A DNA stretch of 44,982 nucleotides, from positions 1-44,982 of IMG/VR virus record IMGVR_UViG_3300037339_000394. One strand, written 5' to 3'. The notes beneath the pieces were generated by a model that saw only the letters and a program-made list of their open reading frames with translations, did not search any database and was not told where the DNA came from. The DNA is from a virus. Below, piece by piece: positions 1-44,982 of this stretch (its first letter is position 1; every line of letters starts with the position of its first letter). Made by a program: the position numbers and the translations under genes.

Positions 1-127
1 GCCGCTGCGTCCGGGGCTACCCCGGGGGCTGGCGCCAACGGCGGCGGCGGTGGCGGTGCGGGTGGTGCAGCCAACACGAACGGTACCGATGCATCGGCCC
101 CTGGTGGAGGTGGTGGCGGCTCGGGGA
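1..127. repeat. Left copy of 127-bp terminal direct repeat
   Basis: These 127 bases are identical to positions 44856-44982. The repeat lies inside one open reading frame, and reading through the join keeps that frame, so it is best explained as the overlap of a circular assembly. The length of 127 equals a common maximum assembler k-mer. True genome length would be 44,855 bases. Confidence 0.97.
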
Positions 128-1716
128 ACAACACCGCGGGTACGAAGAAGGGCGGCCTCGGCCGGGCCGGCCAGATAATCATCACGTGGGCCGACACCCC
201 CGTAACTGTCGCCGTTGACCTCCTCGTCGGCGGTGCGGTTCAGCGAGACCCGACGATCATCGCCGTGGCGGCTGTCAACGTAACGGTTGCCGTAGACCTC
301 TTGGTGGGCGGTGCGGTTCAGCTCGGCTCACACACGAGCACGCAGACCGATATGGTCATGGAGGCGAACAGCGCGCTCCAGGCCGGGGCCGTGCTGTACG
401 AGCCGACCGTCACCGGGGTGATCGGGCCGCTCGACGTTGCGGTTTCCGCCGATCTGCTCGTGGGCGGCGCCGTTCAGCAGACCCCCACGGTTGCCACCGT
501 CCGGCATGTGACTACGGCTGTTGACCTTCTCATCGGCGGCGCGGTCCAGCCGGATGCAGCCGTCGCGTCCGACCGGCATATCATCGTTTCGCCTGACCTT
601 CTCGTGGGCGGTGCCGCCCAGCAGGAGCCCTCGGTAGCGACCGTGAGGAGCGTCACGGTTGAGGTCGGCCTTCTCGTCGGCGGTGCCGTCCTCGTCGAGG
701 CTGCGGCGGGCGGCGACCACGGCGTAACCGTTGCCGTGGACCTGCTCGTCGGCGGCGCTACTCTCCTCGGCACGCATGCCGAGACGCAGAGCGATCTCAT
801 CATGGAGGCCGATGCTCCGCTTGTGGGCGGCGCCGTTCTCCATGAGCCTACCATCGAGACGACCTCCCTCGGCGGGGATGTCACGGTTCTCGTCGACTGC
901 CTGGTGGGCGGAGCCACACAGTACGGGACGCACCAGGGCACGGACATCACGCTGACTGCTGACAGCGCGTTCCAGGCGAGCGGCGTCCTCTACGAGCCGA
1001 CGATTGTCACTCAGTCGAATGTGACGGTTGCGGTTGACCTCCTGGTCGGCGGCGCGGTACTGCACGATCCCACCGTGGGGGCCTCGGGGGCCGTCACCGT
1101 CGAGGTCGATTGCCTCGTCGGCGGAGCTGGCCTGCGCGATGCCACGGTCGCCGCTTACAAATCGGTAACGGTCCTGGTGGACTTGCTCACTGGTGGCGCA
1201 GTCCTCGAGACTCCCACCGTCCAGGTCGACCATGGCGTGACCGTGCAGGCGGACTGCCTCGTCGGCGGGGCCGCGCTGGTCGAGCCGCAGGTGGCGGCAG
1301 CGCGCAGCATCGTCATCGCGATGGATGTGCTGGTCGGGGGTGCTTCGCTTGCCGACCCCTACATCATCAGCCGCGGCGAGCAGGTCGTCCAGGTCGATTG
1401 TCTCATCGCCACGGGCGGACTGTGTGATCCGACTCTCGTCACTTCGCGCAGCGTCATCGTTCTCGTGGATGCGCTCTCTGGCGGGGCCGCGCTGGCCGAT
1501 CCCTCGGAGGCGGTCGTCCGGAGCGTGACGGTAGCGGTCGACCTGCTGACCGCCACGGGCGGACTGTGCGAGTGCATCCCGATCATCGCATGGGCCCGGG
1601 GCCTCATGACCATCGAGGTCGACGTGAGGCTGCCGTCCGTCACCATCGAGACGCGGGAGCCCAGCATCGGGGTCGCTGTCCGCAAGCCGAAGGTCACAGT
1701 CACGGCGAGTACATGA
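1..1716 (+). CDS. Glycine-rich, tandem-repeat fibre-like structural protein (C-terminal part; gene begins at 44400)
   Basis: This is the 3' part of a gene that starts at 44400 and crosses the circular join; codon phase at base 1 matches the 44400 ATG exactly, giving about 723 residues in total. After a glycine-rich stretch ending near base 190, the protein consists of 16 clear copies of a roughly 24-residue unit with consensus VTVxVDLLVGGAVxxxPTV. Three copies carry an extra diverged half-unit (around 330-420, 780-860 and 930-1010). The last ~40 residues are beta-rich without the motif. Glycine-rich N-terminal regions of this style are common in phage tail or head fibres. It sits in the decoration island upstream of the connector genes. 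A fibre or virion-surface adhesin is inferred; no enzymatic motif is visible. An apparent start at 265 is only an internal GTG. Confidence 0.85.
   Translation, partial: AAASGATPGAGANGGGGGGAGGAANTNGTDASAPGGGGGGSGNNTAGTKKGGLGRAGQIIITWADTPVTVAVDLLVGGAVQRDPTIIAVAAVNVTVAVDLLVGGAVQLGSHTSTQTDMVMEANSALQAGAVLYEPTVTGVIGPLDVAVSADLLVGGAVQQTPTVATVRHVTTAVDLLIGGAVQPDAAVASDRHIIVSPDLLVGGAAQQEPSVATVRSVTVEVGLLVGGAVLVEAAAGGDHGVTVAVDLLVGGATLLGTHAETQSDLIMEADAPLVGGAVLHEPTIETTSLGGDVTVLVDCLVGGATQYGTHQGTDITLTADSAFQASGVLYEPTIVTQSNVTVAVDLLVGGAVLHDPTVGASGAVTVEVDCLVGGAGLRDATVAAYKSVTVLVDLLTGGAVLETPTVQVDHGVTVQADCLVGGAALVEPQVAAARSIVIAMDVLVGGASLADPYIISRGEQVVQVDCLIATGGLCDPTLVTSRSVIVLVDALSGGAALADPSEAVVRSVTVAVDLLTATGGLCECIPIIAWARGLMTIEVDVRLPSVTIETREPSIGVAVRKPKVTVTAST
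202..1605 (+). repeat. Degenerate 72-bp (24-codon) tandem repeat array
   Basis: At protein level the motif D-L/C-L-V-G-G-A recurs 16 times at a spacing of about 24 residues, for example units beginning at 652 and 724, exactly 72 bases apart. The DNA copies are clearly related but diverged. Three units are longer because of an embedded diverged half-unit ending in a VLYEPT-like or VLHEPT-like segment. The last units vary the core to LIATGG or LTATGG. Confidence 0.9.
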
Positions 1717-1726
1717 GGAGACTGTC

Positions 1727-2071
1727 ATGGCGATAAACGTGCGGAAGACGGTCAACGAGGACGGGACGATCGTCTTCGATGTCAGCTTCTTCGATGAGGA
1801 CGGCATCGCCTGCACCCCGGCCTCCGCGGCGTGGACCCTCTATGACGACAACGGGGTGATCATCAATTCGCGGAGCGCCGTGGCGATCGCGCCCCTGGCC
1901 GATGTCGTGCATCTCGTGCTGTCGGGGAATGACTGTCAGACCCTCGGGGCGTCCGATTCGCTGGAGAGGATCCTCTACCTCGCGTGGACCTACAACAGCA
2001 CCCTCGGCGCCGGGCTTCCTGCCACCGAGGAGATCCTGTTCAAGGTCAAGGAAACGATCCACCGCTCATAA
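1727..2071 (+). CDS. Small beta-rich phage structural protein, unknown function
   Basis: 114 residues. The pattern of alternating hydrophobic residues and the segment reading AAWTLYDDNGVIINSR followed by VVHLVLSG resembles a widespread family of small phage proteins with an Ig-like beta fold that lie near head-tail connector genes; this is a family resemblance from memory and no function is established. It begins 10 bases after the stop of the repeat-containing fibre gene, with a GGAGA ribosome site, and precedes the connector gene. It probably encodes a virion or assembly component. Confidence 0.75.
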   Translation: MAINVRKTVNEDGTIVFDVSFFDEDGIACTPASAAWTLYDDNGVIINSRSAVAIAPLADVVHLVLSGNDCQTLGASDSLERILYLAWTYNSTLGAGLPATEEILFKVKETIHRS

Positions 2072-2086
2072 TACGGGAGGCGATAG

Positions 2087-2974
2087 ATGCTCGGCGCAAT
2101 GTTGAAGGTCCAGTATACGGGCCTCAGCGCAAGCTGTGTGCTCACGGCCAACTCGACCGCGAAGACTCTCTCCTCGGCCATCGGTGCGGCGGGGGCGGAG
2201 GTGGCCGATGCCGCCTTCGGGACCGCTGGCACCATTACCCTGACGGGGGCCACCGTCGACACGATCGAGGAACTGGCCGAGGTCATCGACGCATACACCG
2301 ACTACACCGCCTCCGTTGAGTACGGCGAGGGGCTGGACACCTCGAACATCTTCGACGCCGTGATGCAGGCGAAGACAGCCGCGGCCTACGTCGCCTTCGA
2401 TGCCCCATCGATCCTCGGCGCCTACTCCCTCGTGAGTTGGGAATATGCGAAGCTCATCCTCGACCTTTCTCCTGACGACCGGCCGAAGTCCGAGTTCATC
2501 CTCAACGCGACGACCGTGCGCGCGGAGCACATCGCGAAGCGCCTGTTCGCGGCGCGCTCGATCACGAAGGACCTCGACGGGACCGGCACACCGAAACTGA
2601 TCCTGCCGGTCTGGCCGGTGAACTCGGTCTCGCGCGTGAACATCGACAGCGCCGGCACCTTCGCCTCGGCCGACGACATCGACTCCGATGACTTCCGGGT
2701 CTACGAGGACGAGGGCTACATTGCCCTGGTCTACACCACGTTCCCCGTAGGCTTCCATAACGTTCGCGTGGTCTGGAATGGCGGCTTCTCGACGATTCCC
2801 TCCGACCTGCAGTTCGCGGCCATCGAGTGCCTGAAGTGGAACCTACTGCGGCTGTCGGGTGAGGCGATCGGCGTGCGGAACATCATCGCATCGGACGGGA
2901 GCAACACCGGCATGGAGATCACCATCCCGACCTCTGCTCAGCGGGTCTTCGAGAGCTACCGCGGGGGGCTGTGA
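2087..2974 (+). CDS. Head-tail connector (gp6-like adaptor) with N-terminal extension
   Basis: 295 residues. The C-terminal half (about residues 105-295) has the hallmarks of the head-tail connector family: a helical segment with RAEHIAKRLFAARSI, the phrase LPVWPVNSVSRV, then VVWNGGFSTIPSDLQFAAIECLKW and a final SYRGGL. These proteins form the ring below the portal that connects to the neck. The first ~100 residues are an alanine/threonine-rich beta region not usual in the family, which is normally near 190 residues. The ATG is preceded by GGGAGG, and the stop overlaps the next start (TGATG), as expected in a connector operon. Confidence 0.8.
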   Translation: MLGAMLKVQYTGLSASCVLTANSTAKTLSSAIGAAGAEVADAAFGTAGTITLTGATVDTIEELAEVIDAYTDYTASVEYGEGLDTSNIFDAVMQAKTAAAYVAFDAPSILGAYSLVSWEYAKLILDLSPDDRPKSEFILNATTVRAEHIAKRLFAARSITKDLDGTGTPKLILPVWPVNSVSRVNIDSAGTFASADDIDSDDFRVYEDEGYIALVYTTFPVGFHNVRVVWNGGFSTIPSDLQFAAIECLKWNLLRLSGEAIGVRNIIASDGSNTGMEITIPTSAQRVFESYRGGL

Positions 2975-8970: not shown

Positions 8971-10790
8971 GCCTCGCAACCGTAGAAGCCCTGAAGCCGA
9001 GCACCCAGAAGATCACGCTCGTCGAGCTGGACTTCGGCGCGCCGCAAACGGTCTGGTTCAACTGGGCGGCCGGGGTATGGTACGTGGACTTCGATGCCGT
9101 CTATGACCTCATCGACCCCGCACTACTCGCCGGGGTCACGGCGCAAACGACCGGTGCCATCGGCTCGGTTTCCTCGGACGCTGCTCCGCTCCTAGCTGTA
9201 GCAAGCGCCGCCGAAGTGCAGACTACCGAGTTGTCGTTCTACTACGATTCCGCCACGCGCCGGGTGTACATCCACCTTCAGAACGGCGACGAGCCGCGGC
9301 TACACCGGATCACGCTCGGGGTGGTCTACGGAGTATCGACCGTGGCCGGCACCTACAACGGCATGATCTACGAGGCCCGCCTGCGCGAGGCCCCCTCGAT
9401 CAGCAAGAGCAAGGATCCGCTGTTCTTCGGACGGATCGCCTTCGAGGGCGGCTCCATCGAGATCGACAACACGGATGGGGCCTTCGACGACCTCGGCGAG
9501 GACAACGATGTTTTCGGGAACGCCGTCCGAATCCTTCAGGGCTTCGGTGGCTTTGACTATTCCGACTTCGCGCGCATGGGCTCGGGGATCATCGAGGACA
9601 TCGAGATCGGTCCCGATAGCCTGCGCGTCTCAATGAAGGATGCGCGCTCGGCCCTCACTCGCGAGCTCCCGACCGATGCCTTCAATCAGACCACGTATCC
9701 GTACCTGAAGGACGCGAACGTCGGCAAGAGCATCCCGGTCTGCTGGGGAGTCTGCCGCAACGTGCCGGTGATCTGCACGAACGAGGACGAGACGACGCCG
9801 GCCGCCTACACCTTCAAGTTCCTCGATACGACGAACCACGAGGCGCACGCGCTGACCGCGGTCCGGGTCAACGATGCCACCGTGACCCCCACCGCGTCCA
9901 GCCTCTCGGCCGGCACGTTCTCCCTGTCGGACACCGACTACTCTCCGGGTGACAAGGTGACAGCCGACATCGAGGGTTACGAGGACGGCTCGGGCAACCT
10001 GATTTCAAATGCGTTAGATATCATTCTTGATATCTTGGAGTCGTACTTCGGCATCGAGTATGGCTCGACATCGTTCAATGAGGGGGAGTGGACCGTCGCC
10101 ACGGCCGCCGCCCCCGATATCGGATACTTCGGCGACGACCCTACCGAGGCAATCCAGATCATCGAGGAGATATGCGCGAGCGCGCGCGTATGGTTCATAA
10201 CGCAGGATGACGGCCGATACACCGCGCGCATCTACAACCCGAGCCGCGCGGTCTCCCAGACCCTCGTCCGCGCCGACCTGCTGGAAATACCCGCCGTCCG
10301 CTACGACCCCGCCGAGGTCCTAACTTCCACGCGCGTCGGCTACAACAAAGACTGGTCCGAGGGTGAGTTCGTATGGCTCCATGACACGAGTCAGGAGTCG
10401 GCGATCTTCGTGAAATACAAGACGTACCGCGAGGAATCCTTCGAGACGCTGCTCACGAATGCCCCGGATGCGCAGGCATTCTCCGATGACATCCTCGACC
10501 TGAGCGGGGAGGTCAATCGAGCGGTCCCGCTGCGCATGAAACTTCAGGGCCTCGGCCGCGAGCTCGGCGATTTCATCGTAGCCGATATCGGCAGACGACA
10601 GGGTGCCGAGAAACTCGCGAAGCTGGAGATCATGGGGATCAGCCGCGACTTGGTGAGGGCGGAGACGACGCTCTCCTGTCGCATCGTCGAGTTCCTTCCT
10701 GAGACCGTCTACGTCCAGGGCGGCTACTGGGGCGAAGACTACTGGGGCGATGAGCTCTGGTGCATGACATATGAGGAGGTTGTGGCATGA
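8967..10790 (+). CDS. Tail hub/baseplate protein
   Basis: 607 residues. The order of domains (N-terminal beta domain, a central FEGGSIEIDNTDGAFDDL segment, and a C-terminal region with VRYDPAEVLTSTRVGYNKDW) is typical of large siphovirus tail-tip hub proteins that close the tail tube and carry fibres. The extreme C-terminus has a short aromatic motif (YWGEDYWGDELW) that is echoed in a 33-residue protein at 41459. The stop overlaps the fibre gene's ATG. No peptidoglycan hydrolase motif was seen. Confidence 0.75.
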   Translation: MSLATVEALKPSTQKITLVELDFGAPQTVWFNWAAGVWYVDFDAVYDLIDPALLAGVTAQTTGAIGSVSSDAAPLLAVASAAEVQTTELSFYYDSATRRVYIHLQNGDEPRLHRITLGVVYGVSTVAGTYNGMIYEARLREAPSISKSKDPLFFGRIAFEGGSIEIDNTDGAFDDLGEDNDVFGNAVRILQGFGGFDYSDFARMGSGIIEDIEIGPDSLRVSMKDARSALTRELPTDAFNQTTYPYLKDANVGKSIPVCWGVCRNVPVICTNEDETTPAAYTFKFLDTTNHEAHALTAVRVNDATVTPTASSLSAGTFSLSDTDYSPGDKVTADIEGYEDGSGNLISNALDIILDILESYFGIEYGSTSFNEGEWTVATAAAPDIGYFGDDPTEAIQIIEEICASARVWFITQDDGRYTARIYNPSRAVSQTLVRADLLEIPAVRYDPAEVLTSTRVGYNKDWSEGEFVWLHDTSQESAIFVKYKTYREESFETLLTNAPDAQAFSDDILDLSGEVNRAVPLRMKLQGLGRELGDFIVADIGRRQGAEKLAKLEIMGISRDLVRAETTLSCRIVEFLPETVYVQGGYWGEDYWGDELWCMTYEEVVA

Positions 10791-11824
10791 AGCCGAGGAT
10801 GACGATCACGCTGACCGGGACCACGTTCACCGATACCCTACTGTCCGACGTCGGCGCAAGCGCGTTTGCGCTGGACCATGACTGGTTCACCAGGCAGAAT
10901 CTTGTCATCCGGACCGCTGCCGCCGGAGGCGGGACGCTGCTGGTCGAGGATACCGACTACACCCTCGGCACCGAGGATACGGAGCTCTCCGCTCGGGTGA
11001 CGGCAGCGGTGGGATCGGGGCGCAACGTCTTCCACACGATCACCATCACGACCGCCGGCTATCAGACGGGCAATCTGTACTTCTCGGGAAAGTACATCGC
11101 CGATTCACTCGACCCGGCGAAGCAGCCGAGCGCGCTGGTCACGGCAAGCACGTTCGCTGACATTCTCTGCCAGACGCTCCCGCCGTTCGTACCGGTCGGA
11201 ATCCATAAGGGGTTCGTAGCGGCCCTCGGAACGTACCGCGTAAGCAGCACCACGACCAGCACCAGCGCGGGGAAGCTGGTGGACACCGCGGGCGACTTCG
11301 TAAACAACGGGGTGATCGCCGGCGACTGGCTCTACAACTCGACGGACGGAACCTGGGGGCGCGTGACGGCGAGGGATAGCGCGACCCAACTCTCCGTCGA
11401 CAACGATGTCTTCCCCACGGGGAAGGCGTACGAGGTGTTCCCGACGCCGACGTGGCCCGAGAACATCCTCGAATGCGATGGCTCCACCGTCTCAGATGCC
11501 GAGAGCCCGCTGAATGGGATGAAGCTTCCCGATCTCAACACTGCCGGCGCATATGCTGACAGCAGCGTTGCGGGGGGCATGCACCTGCGTGGTGGCACTA
11601 CCGCGGGTGTGGTTCAGGAAGACCAGATGCAGGGACACTGGCATGTGCTCAATTCGGCGGGGTCATCGACCAAGGCGCCAAGCGGAGGGAATAACGACAC
11701 CTCACCATACTCATCGACCGCGGTGCGCGATCCCGTTACCGATTCCGTCAATGGCACTCCGCGCACGGGCACGGAAACCCGGGGGCGCAGCTTCAGCGTC
11801 GTCTACATCATCCGGGTCAAATAG
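10787..11824 (+). CDS. Tail fibre with collar-like C-terminal domain
   Basis: 345 residues. The C-terminal third contains the segment WPENILECDGSTVSDAESPL, then LPDLN, MHLRGG, a metal-binding-like GHWHV and a final SFSVVYIIRVK, the layout of phage tail-collar/short-fibre tips. The N-terminal part is beta-rich and should attach to the hub encoded immediately upstream. It probably acts as a receptor-binding fibre, though substrate cannot be told from sequence. Confidence 0.8.
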   Translation: MKPRMTITLTGTTFTDTLLSDVGASAFALDHDWFTRQNLVIRTAAAGGGTLLVEDTDYTLGTEDTELSARVTAAVGSGRNVFHTITITTAGYQTGNLYFSGKYIADSLDPAKQPSALVTASTFADILCQTLPPFVPVGIHKGFVAALGTYRVSSTTTSTSAGKLVDTAGDFVNNGVIAGDWLYNSTDGTWGRVTARDSATQLSVDNDVFPTGKAYEVFPTPTWPENILECDGSTVSDAESPLNGMKLPDLNTAGAYADSSVAGGMHLRGGTTAGVVQEDQMQGHWHVLNSAGSSTKAPSGGNNDTSPYSSTAVRDPVTDSVNGTPRTGTETRGRSFSVVYIIRVK

Positions 11825-21945: not shown

Positions 21946-22329
21946 ATGGCCGCGTTCATCGTTGGCATCTGGCGCGCGCTGACCGCCACCGGCCGGCTGC
22001 TCTTCCTCGGCGCTACCGAGGCGTGGGGTTACTGGTCGGCGACGCTGCTGCTGCTATGCGTCGTGTTCTTCGCGGTGCACCTGGCTGGCGGCGTCTTCTG
22101 GAGGTTCATCGAGGGGCGGCTGCACCCGAAGGTTGCCAGCCCTGAGGCGCTCGCGCAACTGCGCCGCATCGTCCGCGAACTGAAAGCCGACCTCTACGAC
22201 TCGCAGCGTGCGCAGGAGAAACTAGCAGCGGAGAACGCCGAGCTGACCCGTGTCGTCGAGGTGGAGCGCAACTGGTCGCGCAACTGGAACGCCGACGCCG
22301 GCAGGGTCGCAGCGGGGGCGGCGAAGTGA
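21946..22329 (+). CDS. Membrane protein with cytoplasmic coiled coil
   Basis: 127 residues, RBS AGAGGGGAG. Hydrophobic segments at about residues 14-25 and 33-52 (ATLLLLCVVFFAVHLAGGV), then a charged coiled coil (60-110). Possibly a membrane-associated replication or host-takeover factor; no family recognised. Confidence 0.6.
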   Translation: MAAFIVGIWRALTATGRLLFLGATEAWGYWSATLLLLCVVFFAVHLAGGVFWRFIEGRLHPKVASPEALAQLRRIVRELKADLYDSQRAQEKLAAENAELTRVVEVERNWSRNWNADAGRVAAGAAK

Positions 22330-24620
22330 TGGAGCAGGCTTCCTATTCTGATTTTCTTTCATCAAAAAGAAACAGGACGGAGTATCACGGCATCGCCGTG
22401 GATGACGCAAGCATTCACCCCATGCTGTATCCGTTCCAGCGTGACATAGTTCGATGGGCGTGCCACAAGGGGAGGTGCGCCATCTTTCTCGACACCGGGC
22501 TCGGGAAGACTTTCATCCAGCTTGAATGGGCGCGCCTTCTCGGCGAGCGTACCATCATCATCGCGCCGCTATCAGTAACGCGACAGACGATCCGCGAGGC
22601 CGCGAAGATCGGCATAGAAGTGAAGTACATACGAAGCATGACCGATGTCGAGGGCATGTTTTCGATATGCAACTATGAGATGATCGACGCGCTCAATTTC
22701 TCGGCTTTCGGCGCCATCGTGCTAGATGAATCATCTATCTTGAAATCCATCGGAGGAGTGACGCGGAGAACGCTCACGGACCGGTGCCAGAGCATCAAGT
22801 ATCGTCTATGCTGCACGGCCACTCCGGCGCCGAACGATCAAAGTGAGATCGGGAACCATGCCGAGTTCCTCGGGATATGCAAGGGCGTCGAGATGCTCGC
22901 TATGTTCTTTATCCACGCGAACAAACAGGACGAGCGCGAGGAATCGGACGGAAGTATCACCCGAAAAAAGCACAGCAACAAACAGGGCCAGGAGTGGCGA
23001 CTGAAGAATCATGCGCGCGGCAAGTTCTACGAGTGGATGGCGTCGTGGGCTATCGCCATGACACGGCCCGGCGAGCTTGGTTATTCCGACGAAGGCTACA
23101 CGCTTCCAAAACTAACAATCGAGCCGGTCATCGTCGAGTCGGATTATGTGCCGGACGGGGAACTGTTTCACTCTAAACTGTCCGGGATAACCGACAGAAC
23201 GAATGTACGACGCTCTACCATACCCGACCGGCTCGACAGGGTTGACGGGGTTATGAAGAAACACACCGGCCAGTGGATCATATGGGCCGGGCTACAGGCC
23301 GAGACCGATGCGCTGTCGGGGTGGATCAGGTCGGGTCGGAGAGAAGTGAAGGGCGACGATCCGCAGGAACAAAAGATAACCGACCTTCAGGATTTCCAGG
23401 ATGGACAGTATGACATCCTTATAACGAAGCCGAAGATATGCGGGTTCGGGATGAACTTCCAGAATGCGCACAACATGATCTTCTTCGGACTGAGCGATTC
23501 GTGGGAATCGTACTACCAGTGCATCCGCCGCGAATGGCGATACGGTCAAAAGAGGCCGGTGAACGTATACATCATCATGTCTGCTGCTGAGCAGGAGATT
23601 TGGGATAACGTCAAGCGAAAGGAACGGGTGGCGAAACTCATGACGAGCGAACTGCTGAAAAATATCAAGGTATATGAGCGGAGGGAGCTCGGCATGGAAA
23701 GGGGACCCGAAGTCGACGGGGAAGCGTTCTGCGAACCGGTCACCGGATCGAATTTCAAGGCCATTCATGGCGATTCGTGTTTAGAGCTTCCGAAGATCGC
23801 CGAGAACAGCATCGACCTTTCCGTGTACTCGCCGCCGTTCGCCGATCTGTACACCTATACCAATAGCGAGAAGGATCTCGGAAACTCGAAGGATTGGGGC
23901 GAGTTCTTCACTCACTATTCATTCATTATCCGCGAGGTTCTGCGCGTAACGAAGCCGGGCCGTCTGACGTGCGTTCACTCCTCTGACATCCCGGCCATGG
24001 AAGTCAAGGATGGATACATAGGAATGAAGGACTTCCCCGGTGAAGTTGTAAGGGCTTACGAGCGGGAGGGATGGGTGTTCGTCGGGAGGGCATTCATCCA
24101 GAAGAACCCGCAGGCACAGGCAATCCGCGTCAAGAGCAAGGCGCTGCTATTCGCGCAGCTTCGGAAGGATTCATCACACTCGCGGCCGGCCATCATCGAT
24201 CAGATTCTAATATTCAAGAAGCCGGGGGAGAACAATACGCAGATACGGCCGGTTGAGAATGGCGAGATGGATAATGAGACGTGGATCAATTGGGCTCACG
24301 GTATCTGGTTCGGTATACAAGAGTCTGACGTGCTACGGTACGGCGCGGCTCGAGATGCTGACGATGAAAAGCATATCTGCCCGTTGCAGCTCGGCGTGAT
24401 CGAGCGGTGCATCAAACTCTATTCAAATCCGGGAGAAACCGTACTGACTCCTTTCATGGGTATCGGTTCGGAGATATACCAGGCCGTTCGTTTCCGTAGG
24501 AATGGAATAGGAATCGAATTAAAGAAGTCATATTTCAAGATAGCGGTGCAAAACCTAGAATATGCGCAGCGTCACTTCATCGGCCAAGATTTATTCGCGA
24601 CCAATGGAGTCGCGAGTTGA
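22326..24620 (+). CDS. SNF2-type helicase fused to DNA methyltransferase
   Basis: 764 residues. Helicase part: Walker A LDTGLGKT (around residues 55-62), LDES at 133-136 in place of DEAH, TATP at 164-167, and the C-terminal helicase core with GFGMNFQNA and RREWRYGQKRPV (400-411). Methyltransferase part from about 475: VYSPPFADLY (SPPF motif, 502-505) and TPFMGIGS (708-715) followed by IGIELKKSYF, the beta-class amino-methyltransferase order in which the SPPF motif precedes the SAM loop. It probably translocates on DNA while methylating adenine or cytosine, protecting phage DNA or modifying it. Codons are distinctly more AT-rich than in flanking genes, a sign of separate acquisition. Confidence 0.9.
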   Translation: MMEQASYSDFLSSKRNRTEYHGIAVDDASIHPMLYPFQRDIVRWACHKGRCAIFLDTGLGKTFIQLEWARLLGERTIIIAPLSVTRQTIREAAKIGIEVKYIRSMTDVEGMFSICNYEMIDALNFSAFGAIVLDESSILKSIGGVTRRTLTDRCQSIKYRLCCTATPAPNDQSEIGNHAEFLGICKGVEMLAMFFIHANKQDEREESDGSITRKKHSNKQGQEWRLKNHARGKFYEWMASWAIAMTRPGELGYSDEGYTLPKLTIEPVIVESDYVPDGELFHSKLSGITDRTNVRRSTIPDRLDRVDGVMKKHTGQWIIWAGLQAETDALSGWIRSGRREVKGDDPQEQKITDLQDFQDGQYDILITKPKICGFGMNFQNAHNMIFFGLSDSWESYYQCIRREWRYGQKRPVNVYIIMSAAEQEIWDNVKRKERVAKLMTSELLKNIKVYERRELGMERGPEVDGEAFCEPVTGSNFKAIHGDSCLELPKIAENSIDLSVYSPPFADLYTYTNSEKDLGNSKDWGEFFTHYSFIIREVLRVTKPGRLTCVHSSDIPAMEVKDGYIGMKDFPGEVVRAYEREGWVFVGRAFIQKNPQAQAIRVKSKALLFAQLRKDSSHSRPAIIDQILIFKKPGENNTQIRPVENGEMDNETWINWAHGIWFGIQESDVLRYGAARDADDEKHICPLQLGVIERCIKLYSNPGETVLTPFMGIGSEIYQAVRFRRNGIGIELKKSYFKIAVQNLEYAQRHFIGQDLFATNGVAS

Positions 24621-24752: not shown

Positions 24753-25733
24753 GTGACGCGAGAGACCTGCATCCAAATCGTTGACTGGGACGCGCACTAC
24801 GAGAACAACCGCACCCGCGAGCTGAAAAAGATGGCATGGGTACCGATGCCAAACAGCCACGACGGAGACGGGTACACGCAGCTGCTTTCACACCCGAACG
24901 GTGCCGCTCATTTCGGCGCATGGTGCGCACTCGTGGAAGTCGCATCGAGGTGCGAGCCACGCGGAACGCTTCTCAGGAAGACCGTCAGAATCCCGCAGGA
25001 GGGTGCGGTAATCCCGCAGGTGCCTGCGCAGGGGGTCCGGGAGGCCCGCGAGAGTCACAATTCGTCCTCCTTGGCCCGCATGACGCGCATCCCTGAGGAG
25101 TTATGGGATGAGGTCCTCCCGCGTCTCGTATCTATAGGCTGGATAAGGTACTACACGATCCCGCAGGAGGGTGCGGTAATCCCGCAGGTGCCTGCGGAAA
25201 TCCCGCAGGATGGTGCGCAGAAGGGAAGGGAAAGAAAGAAAGAAGGGAAGGGAGAGAAGGGAACGACCGCACCCCCCGCGGCTGCGGCCCTGACGGCCGC
25301 GCCGCAGGTGACGTCCGTCGACGGAGCCATTGCCGCGCTGAGGACCGTCAACCGTAACACGACCCTCCAGGCCGTCGACCAGCCAGCCTTCTCCGCTATC
25401 CTCGCCGCCTACGCTCTCGACCAGGTGCTCGCGGCCTACGCCGACCATCAGCGCCGCAAGCCTGGGAAGTCGTTGCACTGGTTCCTGGTCGACTTCCACG
25501 AGCACCTCGAGCGGGTGCTTTCCGAGCCTAGCAAGAAGCCATCGGCAACCGAGCCCCCCGCTACCGCCGACGATCGGCTTGCAGCTCGTGAACGCGAGGA
25601 GGCGGAGCACCCGGAGCTCGTTGCCGAAGCCGAGGCGAAGGCGGCCGAGTTGAAAGCGAAGATGAAGGGCGGCAAGCCAACGCCAGCCGACGATGACTGG
25701 GAGGCCGTGGATCCAAAGGAGGCTGGCTGGTGA
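24753..25733 (+). CDS. Phage replication initiator (O-like) with iterons in its gene
   Basis: 326 residues from the GTG at 24753 (GGAGGG upstream); an ATG at 24672 would add an implausible proline/arginine-rich extension. Residues ~10-150 have the winged-helix replisome organiser pattern: ELKKMAWVPMPNSHDGDGYTQL, a helical ALVEVASRC and RIPEELWDEVLPRLVSIGW. The centre contains a lysine-rich linker and the C-terminal half is helical (LHWFLVDFHEHLERVL). The coding sequence itself holds five 21-bp iterons and a 45-base purine tract. As in lambda O, the protein probably binds these repeats to start replication and recruits a helicase from the host. Confidence 0.78.
   Translation: MTRETCIQIVDWDAHYENNRTRELKKMAWVPMPNSHDGDGYTQLLSHPNGAAHFGAWCALVEVASRCEPRGTLLRKTVRIPQEGAVIPQVPAQGVREARESHNSSSLARMTRIPEELWDEVLPRLVSIGWIRYYTIPQEGAVIPQVPAEIPQDGAQKGRERKKEGKGEKGTTAPPAAAALTAAPQVTSVDGAIAALRTVNRNTTLQAVDQPAFSAILAAYALDQVLAAYADHQRRKPGKSLHWFLVDFHEHLERVLSEPSKKPSATEPPATADDRLAAREREEAEHPELVAEAEAKAAELKAKMKGGKPTPADDDWEAVDPKEAGW
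24989..25209. repeat. Five iterons (21-bp unit), candidate replication origin
   Basis: The core (A/G)ATCCCGCAGG occurs at 24989, 25010, 25157, 25178 and 25199. Starts are 21 bases apart within each cluster, and the clusters are 147 (7 x 21) bases apart. The rest of each unit is also related, as GAGGGTGCGGT or TGCCTGCG. This arrangement in an initiator gene matches origin iterons. Confidence 0.85.
25219..25263 (+). repeat. 45-base all-purine, near-mirror tract beside iterons
   Basis: Every base from 25219 to 25263 is A or G, built from GGGAA and AAAG units arranged almost as a mirror repeat about its middle. Its position just after the last iteron suggests a DNA-unwinding or triplex-prone element of the origin. 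Confidence 0.75.
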
Positions 25734-27429: not shown

Positions 27430-27497
27430 GCCGACTCCCCGAGGTGGGCAGCGTGACCTGTAATCACGCGGCGGAGGTTCGAGTCCTCCGGTCGGCT
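27430..27497 (+). tRNA. tRNA-like element, possible tRNA-Thr(TGT), aberrant
   Basis: A 7-bp acceptor stem (GCCGACT with GGTCGGC, one G-T pair), a 5-bp T stem (GGAGG/CCTCC) with the standard TTCGAGT loop and a 6-bp anticodon stem (GCGTGA/TCACGC) fold well. The anticodon loop CCTGTAA gives TGT but has C instead of the usual T at position 33. Only 15 bases lie between acceptor and anticodon stems, so the D arm is short and poorly formed. No CCA is encoded. It may be a decayed, unusual or non-canonical tRNA. Confidence 0.55.
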
Positions 27498-35670: not shown

Positions 35671-36957
35671 ATGACCAAACTGGAAAAGCTCCAGGGGGAG
35701 TTCAAGGCCATCGAAGCGAAGGCCAAGCCTCTCCACGAGAAAGAGGATCTGACCGAGCCCGAGGGTGCCGAGCTCTCCGGGTATCTCGATCAGATGCAGG
35801 CAGCGAAGGACAAGATCGACCTCGAGATCAAGGCGCAGGCCGCCTTCAGCTCCAACCCCGCAGACCGCCTCGAGGTGCACGACGTTGCCGACGAGGCGCC
35901 CTACTCCATGGGCGAGTTCCTGCAGGATGTCGCATTCGCGTCCCGCACGCAGGAGAAAAAGCCGCGCCTGGTCCGCCATCAGCAGCGGAACAAGAGCATC
36001 ATGGCGGCCGCGAGCGGCCTGAACGAGGGGATCCCCTCCGAGGGCGGCTTCCTGGTCGGGACTGACTTCACCGGCGAGATGGTGAAGAACGCCTACGACA
36101 ACTCGCAGCTCATCAGCCGCGTGCAGAAACGGAGCATCAGCGGAGCCGCAAACTCCATGGTGATGAACGGCATCGACGAGACCTCGCGCGCGAACGGCTC
36201 CCGCTGGGGCGGCGTGCAGGGGTACTGGATCGCAGAGGCCGGCTCGATCACTGCCTCCAAGCCGAAGTTCCGCAGGATCGAGTTCCTGCTGAAGAAGCAG
36301 GCGGTGCTCTACTACTCGACCGACGAGTTGCTGCAGGATGCGACGGCCCTCGAGGCCGATGCCCGCGACTCCGTGACGGGCGAGCTGCAGTTCATGCTGC
36401 AGGACGCGATCGTCAACGGGAACGGCGCCGGCAAGCCGCTCGGCATCCTCAACTCGCCCTCGCTCGTGTCGGTCGCCGCGGAGACCGGACAGGCCGCGGC
36501 AACCATCGAGTTCGAGAACATCTCGAAGATGTGGGCGGCCATGTGGGCGCCCAGCCGGCAGAACTCCGTGTGGCTCATCAATCAGGAGATCGAGCCTCAG
36601 CTCGACCTGCTCGCCATCCCGGTCGGCACCGCGGGAATGCCCGCGTACATGCCGCCCGGCGGAATCTCGGGCCAGGCCTATGGGACCCTGAAGGGCCGCC
36701 CGGTGATCCCCATCGAGCAGTGCCAGGCGCTCGGAACGGTCGGAGACATCATGCTCGTCGATCCCGGTCAGTATCGGCTGGTCGACAAGGGTGGCATTCA
36801 GAGCGCCGCGAGCATGCATGTGCTCTTCACCACGGACGAGATGTGCTTCCGCTTCATCTACCGGGTCGACGGGCAGCCCCTGTGGCACTCGGCGCTGACG
36901 CCCTTCAAGGGTTCGCAGACCCAGAGCCCGTTCATCGCGCTGGCGACCAGGGCGTAA
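35671..36957 (+). CDS. Major capsid protein (HK97 fold)
   Basis: 428 residues. The N-terminal ~60 residues are a coiled-coil delta domain (LEKLQGEFKAIEAKAKPLHE, then QMQAAKDKIDLEI) expected to be removed by the upstream protease. The rest has ASGLNEGIPSEGGFLVGTDF, RRIEFLLKKQAVLYYSTDELL, NGNGAGKPLGILNS and LKGRPVIPIEQ, patterns of HK97-like capsid proteins. Forms the icosahedral shell. Confidence 0.95.
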   Translation: MTKLEKLQGEFKAIEAKAKPLHEKEDLTEPEGAELSGYLDQMQAAKDKIDLEIKAQAAFSSNPADRLEVHDVADEAPYSMGEFLQDVAFASRTQEKKPRLVRHQQRNKSIMAAASGLNEGIPSEGGFLVGTDFTGEMVKNAYDNSQLISRVQKRSISGAANSMVMNGIDETSRANGSRWGGVQGYWIAEAGSITASKPKFRRIEFLLKKQAVLYYSTDELLQDATALEADARDSVTGELQFMLQDAIVNGNGAGKPLGILNSPSLVSVAAETGQAAATIEFENISKMWAAMWAPSRQNSVWLINQEIEPQLDLLAIPVGTAGMPAYMPPGGISGQAYGTLKGRPVIPIEQCQALGTVGDIMLVDPGQYRLVDKGGIQSAASMHVLFTTDEMCFRFIYRVDGQPLWHSALTPFKGSQTQSPFIALATRA

Positions 36958-38276: not shown

Positions 38277-38456
38277 ATGAACGAACAGACGCAGGAACCC
38301 GTGGCGCAGACCGTGCCGGCGACGCCCGAGAAGAAGGACGTCGTCGTGTCGATGGATGCGCTCGAAGCCGAAGCCGCGCCGGCGGCGCCCGTGAAGAAGG
38401 ACGTCGTCGTGCAGGTCGAGGTACTCAGGGGCGGCGGGGCGCCGACGAGGGTATGA
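38277..38456 (+). CDS. Small repetitive protein with two KKDVVV units
   Basis: 59 residues. The proline/alanine-rich sequence has a duplicated KKDVVV segment (around 38330 and 38394). It probably is a flexible linker or small structural protein; real coding is supported by its position between stop and start of neighbouring genes with minimal gaps. Confidence 0.5.
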   Translation: MNEQTQEPVAQTVPATPEKKDVVVSMDALEAEAAPAAPVKKDVVVQVEVLRGGGAPTRV

Positions 38457-38457
38457 A

Positions 38458-38892
38458 ATGGCCTCTTTAATCTACAACCGATTCTGGATGGATCTCGGCC
38501 TGAAGGCAACCGCCCTCAGCGCCGATGACCTCCGCGTGGCGCTGGTCGACTCGACCTACACGCCGAACAAGGATAACACCCGGTGGGTCACCGGGTCGGA
38601 CCCCTACGACAGCGAGGTGGTCGGGAGCGCCTACACCGCGGGAGGCGCGATACTCAGCGGTTCGACCCTCACCCAGGACGACACGAACGACCTGGTGAAG
38701 TGGGACGCGACGGACGTCACCTGGCAGACCTCGACCATCACGGCGAGGAACGCGGTGGTGTACGACTCGACCATCGCGAACAAGAACCTCATCGCCTGCT
38801 ACCAGTTCACCGAGGACAAAGCCTCGGCGAATGGCAACTTCACCATCCAATGGTCCGGCAGCGGACTGATGGAGTTCAAGCAGGGCACATGA
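38458..38892 (+). CDS. Phage structural protein of ALVDSTYTP type
   Basis: 144 residues. LRVALVDSTYTPNKDN, AYTAGGAILSGSTLTQDD, ATDVTWQTSTITARNAVVYD and GNFTIQWSGSG match a common phage virion protein family of unknown exact role found near capsid or tail genes. A decoration protein is plausible. Its stop overlaps the glycosyltransferase ATG. Confidence 0.75.
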   Translation: MASLIYNRFWMDLGLKATALSADDLRVALVDSTYTPNKDNTRWVTGSDPYDSEVVGSAYTAGGAILSGSTLTQDDTNDLVKWDATDVTWQTSTITARNAVVYDSTIANKNLIACYQFTEDKASANGNFTIQWSGSGLMEFKQGT

Positions 38893-39548
38893 CGATAGTC
38901 TTCTGTCTCCCCGGGCAATCGTACTCCGGGCTATTTCTGGAACGCTGGAGTGACCTCCTCGCGAGCTGCATTCTGAAGGGGGTCACTCCCATCATGCGCC
39001 GGGAGTACACGTCGAACGTCTACCTGACGAGGAACATGATCCTCGAGCCGGACATCCTGAAGCGGGGATTCCCGATGAACGGTGTGCAGCCGCTTCGTGG
39101 GACCGGCTACGACTGGCTCATGTGGATCGACAGCGATGCGGTGTTCAGGTCGGAAGACGTGTGGCACCTCATGGACCACAACGTCGACATCTGCACCGGC
39201 AGCGCGATCACGAACATGGAGCAGGGCAGGCTCCAGTGGGGATTCCACAATAGCGACGGGACATGTGAGTTCGCGCGGAAGATTGACCTCGACAAGTACA
39301 ACCGCAATGATGACGGGCTGATCGAGGTCGAGTTCACCGGGTTTCACTTCCTGCTCGTGCGCCGCGGCGTCTTCGAGAAACTCGGGTATCCGTGGTTCAG
39401 GCCGGTGCCCAAAGTCATGAAGGACCAGGTGTTCTTCCCGAGCGAAGACATTTCGTGGTGCTCGCTGGCGATTGAGGCCGGATTCAAGATCCACGTGGAC
39501 CCGACGATCAAGCTGGGCCATCTGAAGGCGGTCACGCTGACGGCGTGA
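38889..39548 (+). CDS. Glycosyltransferase (GT-A fold)
   Basis: 219 residues from ATG 38889. YDWLMWIDSDAVF contains the DxD motif (Asp81, Asp83) that binds the metal and sugar nucleotide in GT-A enzymes. The C-terminal GFHFLLVRRGVFEKLGYPW and SEDISWCSLAIEAGF resemble GT2-type acceptor regions. Location within structural genes suggests it glycosylates virion proteins rather than DNA or the host surface, which remains to be shown. Confidence 0.85.
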   Translation: MTIVFCLPGQSYSGLFLERWSDLLASCILKGVTPIMRREYTSNVYLTRNMILEPDILKRGFPMNGVQPLRGTGYDWLMWIDSDAVFRSEDVWHLMDHNVDICTGSAITNMEQGRLQWGFHNSDGTCEFARKIDLDKYNRNDDGLIEVEFTGFHFLLVRRGVFEKLGYPWFRPVPKVMKDQVFFPSEDISWCSLAIEAGFKIHVDPTIKLGHLKAVTLTA

Positions 39549-39569
39549 TAGGAGAGGGAAGAAAGGTAC

Positions 39570-40148
39570 ATGAGCGAACCGATGGTGACGGTGAAGCGGA
39601 TCAGGGGCCAGGGGGTGTCCTGGCATGGGACGCGGAAGTGGATCTGCGAGTACATCGTGAACGAGATCAAGCCCCGGGTGGTGCTCGATCTCGGTTGCGG
39701 GATCGGGGTGTACGGGGCGTTCCTGCGGCAACTCAACCCGAAGATCGAGATGATCGGCCTCGACGGATTCCTGCCCTACCTGGTGCAGGAGTTCACCATG
39801 ACGCTGTACACCGCGAGGATACACACCGGCATCGAGCGGGTCATTGACGGGACGCTGAGAATCCAGGCGGACCTCGTGATCTGCATGGACGTGATCGAGC
39901 ACTTCCCGAAGGACGATGCATGGAGCGTGCTCGACCTTCAGCCGAAGGTCGCCCCCGTGATGATCGTCTCGACCCCGCTCTTCGACTACCCGCAGGAGCC
40001 CGTGGGCGGGAACCAGCTCGAGAAGCATCGGTGCTGGTTCACGGAAGAGGAGATCGCCTCGCGGGGCTACCGGGCCCTGCACATCGAGGACATGGACGAC
40101 GGGAACGGGAAGGGCAGGATCGGAGCCTTCGAGCGCAGGGGCCCGTGA
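39570..40148 (+). CDS. SAM-dependent methyltransferase 1
   Basis: 192 residues, RBS GGGAAGAAAGG. VVLDLGCGIGVYG (38-49) is the SAM-binding motif I; VICMDVIEHF and STPLF follow as in class I small-molecule methyltransferases. It is closely related to the next gene, with shared GNQLEKHRCWFT and GNALEKHQSWFT segments. Presence next to a glycosyltransferase suggests methylation of a sugar or virion glycan. Confidence 0.85.
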   Translation: MSEPMVTVKRIRGQGVSWHGTRKWICEYIVNEIKPRVVLDLGCGIGVYGAFLRQLNPKIEMIGLDGFLPYLVQEFTMTLYTARIHTGIERVIDGTLRIQADLVICMDVIEHFPKDDAWSVLDLQPKVAPVMIVSTPLFDYPQEPVGGNQLEKHRCWFTEEEIASRGYRALHIEDMDDGNGKGRIGAFERRGP

Positions 40149-40669
40149 TGGGCGACGGGCACCCGGCGATCATGCGCTACGTGCTGCTATCGCTACAGCA
40201 GCATGGGGCGCGGAGCGTGCTGGACCTCGGGTGTGGGCGGGGGCAGTACGGGCCGATGGTCAAGCGCTATCTCGGGAGAGACACGCGGACCATCGGGGTC
40301 GATGGATACCTGCCATACCTGGCGGGCGACGATGCGCGGACCTACGACGTGCTCGTGAGGGGCGACCTGTTCGATTTCGTCGATGGACGGATTGCGGCGC
40401 CGGCGGACGCGGTGCTGTGCATGGACGTGATCGAGCACTTCGACCGGGAGAAGGCGAAGCGGCTGTCGGGGTGGCTGATCGCTCAGCCGCTCGCCTACCT
40501 GAGCACCCCGCTGTTCTGGCTTGAGCAGGACGCGGCGGCGGGGAACGCGCTGGAGAAACATCAGAGCTGGTTCACGTTCGACGAGCTAGTGGGCATGGGC
40601 TGGCTGCCGCTGGCGAAAGTCCGGTGGGACGCGCGCGGGTGGATCGGCGCGTTCAAGAGTAAGGAGTGA
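40148..40669 (+). CDS. SAM-dependent methyltransferase 2 (sister of the gene at 39570)
   Basis: 173 residues from ATG 40148, overlapping the preceding TGA by one base. SVLDLGCGRGQYG is the SAM motif I (23-35), with IGVDGYLPYL, LCMDVIEHF and STPLFW. The similarity with the upstream enzyme along the whole length points to tandem duplication followed by divergence. Probably acts on another position of the same substrate. Confidence 0.85.
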   Translation: MGDGHPAIMRYVLLSLQQHGARSVLDLGCGRGQYGPMVKRYLGRDTRTIGVDGYLPYLAGDDARTYDVLVRGDLFDFVDGRIAAPADAVLCMDVIEHFDREKAKRLSGWLIAQPLAYLSTPLFWLEQDAAAGNALEKHQSWFTFDELVGMGWLPLAKVRWDARGWIGAFKSKE

Positions 40670-43019: not shown

Positions 43020-43709
43020 ATGGCAGTCTTTGAAGCATTCGAGAACGCATATACGCAGACATGGAGTGACTTCGCCGGGGGGGCTGGGACTTGGGACTTT
43101 GTTGCGTCTGGATCACATACGGGGAGTTCATATCATGTGACAGTTCTTCCGACGGGTTCTCAGGGAAAATATATCGCGGCGCCCGGAGGCGACGTGATAG
43201 GATATCTTGCGGGTTGGTTCAAAATAACGACAGATAATTTAGTTGACGGCTCTCAGGTATCCATAGCCGGATTGAGTAGCGGTGCCGTTACGACGCTTGC
43301 GGCGTGGATGGATATAGGCAAAACGGGTACGCAACTATGGGCGAAATTACTATATTACGACAACTATAGTACCGTTTCGAGTGATGCCGTGAATATAAGT
43401 ACGGGGACTTGGTACCATTTCGGGATCAAGTATGACACCACGGGGAATACATGGGGATTTTACTTGAGCACTGTTATTGACTTGGGTGCGGCTCAAGATA
43501 GTGGTGCGATGGATAACGTTGCGAGAGTCCCTGACATGATATGTTTGGGATCGATTTATGGTGAGGGAACATGGGGTAGTGGAGCGACCGTATTCGGCTT
43601 GGACTCGATTGATTTCAGCGATGTTTCTCTCGTCCATGATGGAGAAGACGGTGCCGGTGGCTCCATCGTCTGGACCCCCCACGTCTCGAAAAGGATGATC
43701 TTCTCATGA
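43020..43709 (+). CDS. LamG/concanavalin-like protein
   Basis: 229 residues. IAAPGGDVIGYLAGWFKITTD, AAWMDIGKTGTQLWAKLLYYD, GTWYHFGIKYDTTGNTWGFYL and LDSIDFSDVSLVHDG indicate a concanavalin A-like jelly-roll. Together with the beta-helix protein it forms an AT-rich patch that may be a host-interaction cassette. Coupled by ATGA to the next gene. Confidence 0.75.
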   Translation: MAVFEAFENAYTQTWSDFAGGAGTWDFVASGSHTGSSYHVTVLPTGSQGKYIAAPGGDVIGYLAGWFKITTDNLVDGSQVSIAGLSSGAVTTLAAWMDIGKTGTQLWAKLLYYDNYSTVSSDAVNISTGTWYHFGIKYDTTGNTWGFYLSTVIDLGAAQDSGAMDNVARVPDMICLGSIYGEGTWGSGATVFGLDSIDFSDVSLVHDGEDGAGGSIVWTPHVSKRMIFS

Positions 43710-44407
43710 GGAAAGCGGTCTTCGTGCTCAACGTGAATGACTACTCACCCGAGATCACGAAGATCACCTATCCGTTCCTGCGGCTGTACGCTGAGAAGAT
43801 CGGCGCCGAGTTCGTCGAGATCACCGAGCGCAAGTTCCCGGAGTGGCCCGTTGTGTGCGAGAAGCTCCAGATATACGACCTCGCGCGCGCGGGGGCGTGG
43901 GATTGGAACATCTACTTCGACTCGGACTGCCTGCTGCACCCGGAGGCGCCCGACTGGACGGAGCACCTCGCGCGGGACACGGTCGCGCAGAACGGGCACG
44001 ACTTCTCCAGCATCCGCCATGCTCACGACGAATACTTCCTGCGCGACGGGCGGAACATCGGCACCTGCGGCTGGCTCACGATTGCCTCGTCCTGGTGCCT
44101 CGACCTGTGGCACCCCTGTGAGGACCTCACCCCCGAGGAGGTGACGCGGCGCTGCTACCTGACCGTGAACGAAACGAACAGCGGGGTCATGGAACGATCG
44201 CATCTCGCGGACGACTACATCATGAGCCGCAACGTCGCGCGCTACGGGCTGAAGTACACGGCCATCGCTGACCTCAACGCGAAGCTGTTCCCGCAGGGCT
44301 GCGACTTCTTCTTCCACGCATACACGATCCCGGTGGCCGATAAGGTTCAGCAGTTGAGGGAGACGCTGGACCGGTGGCACCTGCTCCCGGACTACCGCCA
44401 TGCCTAA
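43706..44407 (+). CDS. Glycosyltransferase 2
   Basis: 233 residues. KAVFVLNVNDYSPEITKI, VCEKLQIYDLARAGAWDWNIYFDSDCLLHP (DSD, Asp72 and Asp74), then YLTVNETNSGVMERSHLADDYIMSRN and FFFHAYTIPVADKV resemble GT-A glycosyltransferases with a C-terminal acceptor region. It overlaps the fibre gene start (44400) and is separate from the first glycosyltransferase (38889). It could glycosylate the repeat protein it is coupled to. Confidence 0.8.
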   Translation: MRKAVFVLNVNDYSPEITKITYPFLRLYAEKIGAEFVEITERKFPEWPVVCEKLQIYDLARAGAWDWNIYFDSDCLLHPEAPDWTEHLARDTVAQNGHDFSSIRHAHDEYFLRDGRNIGTCGWLTIASSWCLDLWHPCEDLTPEEVTRRCYLTVNETNSGVMERSHLADDYIMSRNVARYGLKYTAIADLNAKLFPQGCDFFFHAYTIPVADKVQQLRETLDRWHLLPDYRHA

Positions 44408-44982
44408 CAACACCTACACCGTCGCCGGGACAAACTATTGGGTCTGCCCGAACGGCATCACCGCCGCGAACATCGAGGTGTGGGGGGGCGGAGGGTCCGG
44501 TGCCTCAACGTCGCTGACGACAGCGGCGGGAGGTGGTGGTGGCGGTGGTGCGTATGGGAGAAATAACGGCGTCACTGTCGTGCCGGGGACGAACTATACC
44601 CTCATCATCGGTGCTGGCGGTGCGGTCGGCAGCGGGAACGCGAACGGGAACAACGGAGGATACTCGGGGTTCAACGCAAACCAGGTCTCGGCCCTCGGTG
44701 GGTCGCGCGGGCTCCGTACGAACGCGGCGGGAGCGGGTGGAACGACTGGAGGCGTGGGGGCTACCGAGTACGCTGGCGGGGCTGGGGCGGCTGGTGTCAA
44801 CTCTACGCACATCGGTGGTGGCGGTGGTGCCGGCGCAGGGAACACCGCAATAGGAGCCGCTGCGTCCGGGGCTACCCCGGGGGCTGGCGCCAACGGCGGC
44901 GGCGGTGGCGGTGCGGGTGGTGCAGCCAACACGAACGGTACCGATGCATCGGCCCCTGGTGGAGGTGGTGGCGGCTCGGGGA
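44400..44982 (+). CDS. Glycine-rich repeat protein, N-terminal part (continues at base 1)
   Basis: The ATG at 44400 overlaps the glycosyltransferase stop. MPNNTYTVAGTNYWVCPNG opens a region with long glycine runs (GGGGGGGAYGR, GGGGAGAGN) up to the window end; the frame is uninterrupted across the join, continuing to the stop at 1716. Glycine-rich head regions of this style occur in phage fibre adhesins. The total length is about 723 residues. Confidence 0.85.
   Translation, partial: MPNNTYTVAGTNYWVCPNGITAANIEVWGGGGSGASTSLTTAAGGGGGGGAYGRNNGVTVVPGTNYTLIIGAGGAVGSGNANGNNGGYSGFNANQVSALGGSRGLRTNAAGAGGTTGGVGATEYAGGAGAAGVNSTHIGGGGGAGAGNTAIGAAASGATPGAGANGGGGGGAGGAANTNGTDASAPGGGGGGSG
44856..44982. repeat. 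Right copy of 127-bp terminal direct repeat
   Basis: Identical to bases 1-127. See the left copy for interpretation as a circular assembly overlap. Confidence 0.97.

Follow-up and report, generated by a model that had tools for sequence, protein, structure and literature searches.

An orphan 24-residue repeat protein encoded between the capsid and neck genes of a viral genome: a possible virion-surface adhesin and its counterparts in other phages

The viral record IMGVR_UViG_3300037339_000394, referred to here as the window (the whole stretch of 44,982 nucleotides that was analysed), opens inside a gene for a long repetitive protein. This locus raises the question of whether the repeat belongs to any described family, what the protein does for the virus and whether its units change by recombination. 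The first 127 bases of the record are the same as its last 127 (bases 44856-44982 duplicate 1-127), and when this overlap is counted once, a single ORF of 723 residues extends on the + strand over 44400..44855 and 1..1716. The ends of the record probably join at this point, which is backed by the ORF running through in frame; the protein that the first-pass annotation had described across the join is confirmed. The start of the ORF shares 8 bases with the upstream gene, and the next gene begins 10 bases past its stop, a spacing that looks like that of a tightly packed operon.

Table 1. Features of the window discussed in the text, with the corresponding genes of L167, a viral locus with a YxPTV array.
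Feature	Position	Strand	Remarks
Major capsid protein (MCP), phrog_10	35671..36957	+	upstream slot boundary; 47% identity with the L167 MCP
Gene in same order in L167	36970..37446	+	BLASTP 7e-12
LamG-like gene, same order in L167	37521..38270	+	weak Laminin_G_3 below cut-off; 3e-33
phrog_644-like gene	38458..38892	+	
Right-handed beta-helix gene (PF13229), same order in L167	41769..43010	+	
Gene directly upstream of array gene	43706..44407	+	no family match; resembles a glycosyltransferase by eye only
ORF start, Gly_rich_2 (PF21722) head	44400..44982	+	Pfam profile
Remainder of glycine-rich head, in frame over join	1..201	+	
Array, 19 units (u0-u18)	202..1602	+	consensus VTVxVDLLVGGAVLxDPTVxxxxx
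Doublet 1 (u1/u2)	280..435	+	higher-order repeat, family D5
Doublet 2 (u7/u8)	724..879	+	higher-order repeat, family D5
Doublet 3 (u9/u10)	880..1020	+	higher-order repeat, family D5
Degenerate C-terminal end, 37 residues	1603..1713	+	
Small protein gene after array	1727..2071	+	no family
Head-tail adaptor, phrog_442	2087..2974	+	downstream slot boundary; same family in L167
Tail-fibre-like gene, after tail module	10787-11824		phrog_1858 1.8e-8

The protein consists of a glycine-rich head followed by a repeat array, as had been proposed from the letters alone. The Pfam domain Gly_rich_2 (PF21722) matches the first 194 residues (1.8e-10), scoring 41.6 bits where the cut-off is 24.3, and 41.2 bits when the whole genome is searched; a weak second piece of the same domain lies at window positions 28-189. 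A further match of the head, at 1e-6, is to phrog_863, 'tail fiber assembly'. The Gly_rich_2 score exceeds the curated cut-off, and the domain is placed here N-terminal to a repeat array. The array holds 19 units, of which 14 are exactly 24 residues long and the others 23, 26, 26, 28 and 28. Three units (u2, u8 and u10) are diverged, in agreement with the earlier count of 16 clear and about 3 diverged copies. Residue identity reaches 0.291 at a lag of 24 and 0.294 at a lag of 48, against a maximum of 0.170 across lags 5-119 in 1000 shuffles. Among the 15 tabulated units (the table omits u2, u8, u10 and u18), L8 is present in 15/15 and D6, G10, G11 and A12 in 14/15 each. Three pairs of units, u1/u2, u7/u8 and u9/u10, form a higher-order doublet. 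Outside the array, a small ORF at 38277-38459, just upstream of the phrog_644-like gene, contains two KKDVVV stretches that resemble single array units (hmmsearch 9e-4).

Relatives of the unit were sought in several collections. The unit gave no match to Pfam, PHROGs, NCBIfam or the PDB sequences, and the array part, searched against Pfam at E<=1, returned one sub-threshold, unrelated match only, with neither an RTX beta-roll nor any other named repeat. The view that the repeat is not a named family thus holds for these libraries. In viral contigs, no relative was found by protein query or by two-unit alignment; a two-copy DNA pattern returned 63 stretches that were HMM-checked and included no relative, and the 5 stretches returned by a one-unit pattern were all unrelated by eye. 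The annotated phages gave no tblastn match even at E<=10, a search that was perhaps blunted by masking or composition correction, since not even chance matches appeared. No relative was confirmed in genome contigs, where the one-unit pattern occurred in at least 119 stretches and the 80 of 119 loci that were HMM-checked held single chance units only; a Methanoregula cluster among these pattern matches is, by eye, one transporter-like gene family. Nothing was found with the head-tail adaptor as the query. The terminase led to many phages, and among the 80 taken, many of them fragmentary, the array was seen in none. A strain-level relative was also not found. At the level of sequence, the VDLLVGGA unit stands as an orphan across all the collections searched.

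Arrays of a similar period are nevertheless common in other phages. They were found through a Y-x-P-T-V core pattern repeated at 72 bases and at 69 bases, which 114 viral loci match (L145-L203 and L206-L260), 109 of them with an array ORF. The units of these YxPTV arrays fall into type A (GYAPTV), type B (IATAExVYxPTV) and type C (NTFYAPTV), which are linked by profile comparison with probabilities of 88 (A-B), 91 (A-C) and 94 (B-C). Type C corresponds to phrog_8501, 'minor tail protein', in 8/8 scanned type C proteins, whereas types A and B have no repeat model in the libraries scanned, and no credible Pfam or NCBIfam repeat model was found in the YxPTV proteins scanned. YxPTV repeats of 22-24 residues are widespread in phage proteins and, judged from their profiles, mutually related. 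The class is little described and at best annotated as 'minor tail protein'; a search for papers on YxPTV motifs or a repeat model found nothing relevant among open-licence PMC papers.

The architecture of the YxPTV proteins is variable. Of 64 complete and distinct array ORFs, 20 have a domain-sized stretch N-terminal to the array, 23 have one C-terminal to it, 9 have such stretches on either side and 12 have the array by itself. An F5/8 type C domain was found in the array protein of L154 and an Ig-like domain, below cut-off, in that of L172, and the head of L167 is LamG-like by eye. The heads vary, and some look sugar-binding. At the level of the whole record, PF21722 was matched (E<=0.001) in 2 of 50 other array records. 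At L151:3938-5647, the array ORF continues C-terminally into Tail_completion_gp17 (PF11367, 6e-13); L151 and L152 count as one independent fusion because L152 is a near-duplicate. The array proteins of Gordonia and Mycobacterium phages are annotated as minor tail proteins, and their genes are near lysin genes. One of them, gp37 of Gordonia phage Gibbles (QDK01996.1), is a tail protein in which GYAPTV-type units follow one another in a run, but its array is N-terminal, its C-terminal domain is phrog_7114 and its gene is near the lysins. A C-terminal end 'RSIDI...' shared between array proteins was also considered; of 70 array C-termini, 6 show the pattern, about three of them convincingly by eye, and it was dropped as evidence.

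The order of the genes links the window to these phages independently of the repeat sequence. In the window, the MCP is followed by the 36970 gene, the LamG-like gene, the phrog_644-like gene, sugar-/methyl-transferase-like genes, the beta-helix gene, the array, a small gene and the phrog_442 adaptor. L167 (7.7 kb), from a related phage, has in turn MCP, 36970 homologue, LamG-like gene, phrog_644-like gene, beta-helix gene, GYAPTV array, small gene, phrog_442 adaptor and head closure. Besides the two matches with E-values in Table 1, the MCPs match at 3e-94, the beta-helix genes at 1e-4 and the phrog_644-like genes by phmmer at 2e-5 (BLASTP not significant), the BLAST and phmmer E-values being computed for an 11-protein set; the L167 adaptor is assigned to phrog_442 at 3e-30. 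Neither the two arrays nor the two small genes match each other in this comparison. The beta-helix gene of L167 (L167:2848-4137, - strand) itself encodes a single YxPTV-type unit close to the N-terminus. In the window, a weak Glycos_transf_2 match and two tandem methyltransferase-like genes occupy 38886-40669, between the capsid and neck genes.

The same arrangement recurs in part elsewhere. A phrog_644-like gene lies upstream on the same strand in 29/114 YxPTV loci against 0/262 background loci, where the 29 include several near-duplicates and the background loci (143 viral and 119 bacterial or archaeal) are not taxon-matched. In the 5 of 50 array records with phrog_10, the array is downstream on the same strand in G035, G038, G047 and G031 and upstream in G055/L200. 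A phrog_442 match was found in 4 of the 46 array records searched: in G047 and G038 it directly follows the array, in G031 (the record of L151) the array is further downstream, and the fourth match, in G054, is weak and on the opposite strand. In G038 (locus L165), the array lies between the MCP and the phrog_442 adaptor. The window array gene has the same setting, with a phrog_644-like gene upstream and a place between the MCP and the neck, and on the best reading it corresponds in position to the YxPTV arrays.

The suggestion that the array is a solenoid or beta-roll stalk was followed by structure prediction. An AlphaFold2 model of 510 residues, made with no alignment, is all-beta and solenoid-like, with a mean pLDDT of 59 and a pTM of 0.57; over residues 281-390, ten-residue blocks average a pLDDT of 64-80. 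Foldseek of this model against pdb and a viral library gave nothing at E<=0.001. VIA-align of the top Foldseek chains returned mostly beta-helices and solenoids, with leucine-rich-repeat receptors at lower Z. Among these are 3p4g (VIA Z 17.1, rmsd 3.8, 282 aligned) and the Pam1 tailspike 7eea (VIA Z 17.1, rmsd 4.2, 434 aligned); the highest VIA Z was 23.7, but with an rmsd of 9.4. A type C protein, that of L232, was modelled from an 18-sequence alignment and also came out solenoid-like, each 22-23 residues forming about three short strands, with a pLDDT of about 57-88 over the coils and a VIA Z of up to 19.9. Single-sequence prediction tends to give repeats a solenoid shape, so these models are taken as support and not as proof. 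The array is accordingly predicted only to form a beta-solenoid: the all-beta fold fits the suggested stalk, while the low confidence of a single-sequence model leaves that suggestion plausible and no firmer.

Taken together, we lean, with some reserve, towards a virion-surface adhesin in which a Gly_rich_2 head is carried on a beta-solenoid stalk, the protein being the positional counterpart of the YxPTV arrays. The N-terminal head would be borne by a rigid stalk of 19 coils, one per 24-residue unit, which would be roughly 9 nm long if each coil adds 0.48 nm. The protein would be mounted near the head-tail junction, probably anchored by its C-terminus with the heads facing out, and the head would be offered for a first, reversible contact with glycans of the host surface. 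In other phages, this place between the MCP and adaptor genes is taken by YxPTV proteins, which carry exchangeable heads. Since no homologue of the unit was found, the functional statements rest on position or architecture. Gene order and the one fusion in L151 point to a location in the virion, and the F5/8 type C, Ig-like (below cut-off) and LamG-like (by eye) heads of the YxPTV family suggest adhesion. Evidence against a placement at the neck comes from the actinophages, whose arrays are near lysins, and from the one of the five MCP-bearing array records in which the array is upstream of the MCP. For HFTV1, host contact through a carbohydrate-binding module on the capsid has been proposed: the turret head protein on the virion surface contains a proposed module of this kind, with a proposed role in reversible adherence to host glycans (PMC12494034). 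This is an analogy only, as HFTV1 is an archaeal virus, its turret has a trimeric head on a hexameric base and the passages on it mention no repeat array.

The protein may instead be an ordinary receptor-binding protein or fibre of the tail tip whose gene just happens to come early in the structural cluster, which we consider unlikely but worth weighing. The match of the head to 'tail fiber assembly' and that of all scanned type C proteins to 'minor tail protein' are in its favour. However, the array gene sits between the MCP and the head-tail adaptor, the L151 array is fused to a neck domain, and the window has a separate tail-fibre-like gene after the tail module. The earlier name of fibre is plausible, yet the gene is found between the capsid and neck genes and not in a tail-tip module. 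A secreted or cell-surface protein, a moron and not a part of the virion, is very improbable. In its favour, the glycosyltransferase- and methyltransferase-like genes nearby could have the cell surface as their target, but the ORF overlaps and abuts its neighbours within a run of head and neck genes, and the hydropathy maximum of the 723-residue protein is at residue 238, within the array and not at the N-terminus.

A different matter is the descent of the array, on which the virion-surface adhesin reading does not depend. VDLLVGGA may be a separate family that replaced a YxPTV array in the slot, with the same function and no common descent; we give this serious weight while stopping short of favouring it, and it is compatible with the adhesin reading. 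The two kinds of array are alike in having a beta-rich unit of 23-24 residues, P-T-V near positions 17-19 in many units, a junction with a head domain and, in L167 and L165/G038, a shared place between the MCP and the head-tail adaptor. They differ in that the window core is DLLVGGA and not aromatic-x-PTV, in the Gly_rich_2 head and in the lack of a phrog_8501 match, both at E<=1 for the protein and at E<=10 in the window genome. Separate descent is supported by the absence of HMM-level similarity, as in HMMER the type C model gives the window no higher a score than it gives permuted decoys, and by the absence of the aromatic-x-P-T-V core from most window units (Y at position 15 in 1/15, P at 17 in 9/15, T at 18 in 6/15). 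Common descent is supported by the shared period and phase, by the LYEPT of u2 and u10, which looks intermediate, and by an ungapped, in-register hhalign of the unit to type C that was reached by 1/300 permutations. A two-unit hhalign with type A was reached by 0/60 column permutations, whereas unit comparisons with types B and A were reached by 19/200 and 62/200. Of the 24 rotations, the natural phase ranks first against L167 and type A but fifth against type C, and after correction for the best of 24 rotations, with all types pooled (542/3000), significance is gone. The tests disagree and kinship is suggestive only; by sequence, the window unit is not counted as a YxPTV member.

It had also been proposed that the repeat DNA allows changes of length or sequence by recombination. 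The protein repeat is indeed tandem and the doublet is present in three copies, but a length-variable protein of this kind is scarcely credible given the codons. Where aligned unit pairs have identical residues, the same codon is used at 671/1614 positions (0.42); the expected share is 0.41 from the codon usage of the array gene itself and 0.38 from that of eight other genes. No local stretch of units has an excess of shared codons beyond a codon-resampling null (148/200 null runs reach the observed maximum), and Tandem Repeats Finder detected no tandem DNA repeat in 1-1716. The units are therefore old and maintained by selection on the protein, and are not fresh products of slippage or recombination. 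A recent duplication of units was ruled out by the same codon randomisation and resampling scan. The sole reports of Tandem Repeats Finder within the window were two short 21-bp tandem arrays at 24989-25217.

A broader reading, which we put forward tentatively and regard as short of probable, is that the protein of the window diverged within a very widespread and structurally uncharacterised superfamily of beta-solenoid stalks with 22-24-residue coils, to which the YxPTV and VDLLVGGA arrays would both belong. Such stalks would be a standard rigid mount at the head-neck junction for exchangeable sugar-binding heads (Gly_rich_2, LamG-like, F5/8 C and Ig), a modular adhesive system apart from the tail fibres. 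The recurrent slot between capsid and neck genes points to a possible second adhesive device beside the tail fibres. Stalk repeats of 23-24 residues of the YxPTV kind are common in phages, yet have no Pfam or NCBIfam model in the proteins scanned. If the position in the virion is true, it would account for a number of genes in the capsid-neck interval that are labelled 'hypothetical' and would provide a modular scaffold for the display of domains.

Two further features of the window lie away from the structural genes discussed here. One ORF at 22326-24620 has both DNA helicase and DNA methyltransferase matches and is apparently a fusion, and a tRNA-Thr (tgt) gene is located at 27430-27497.
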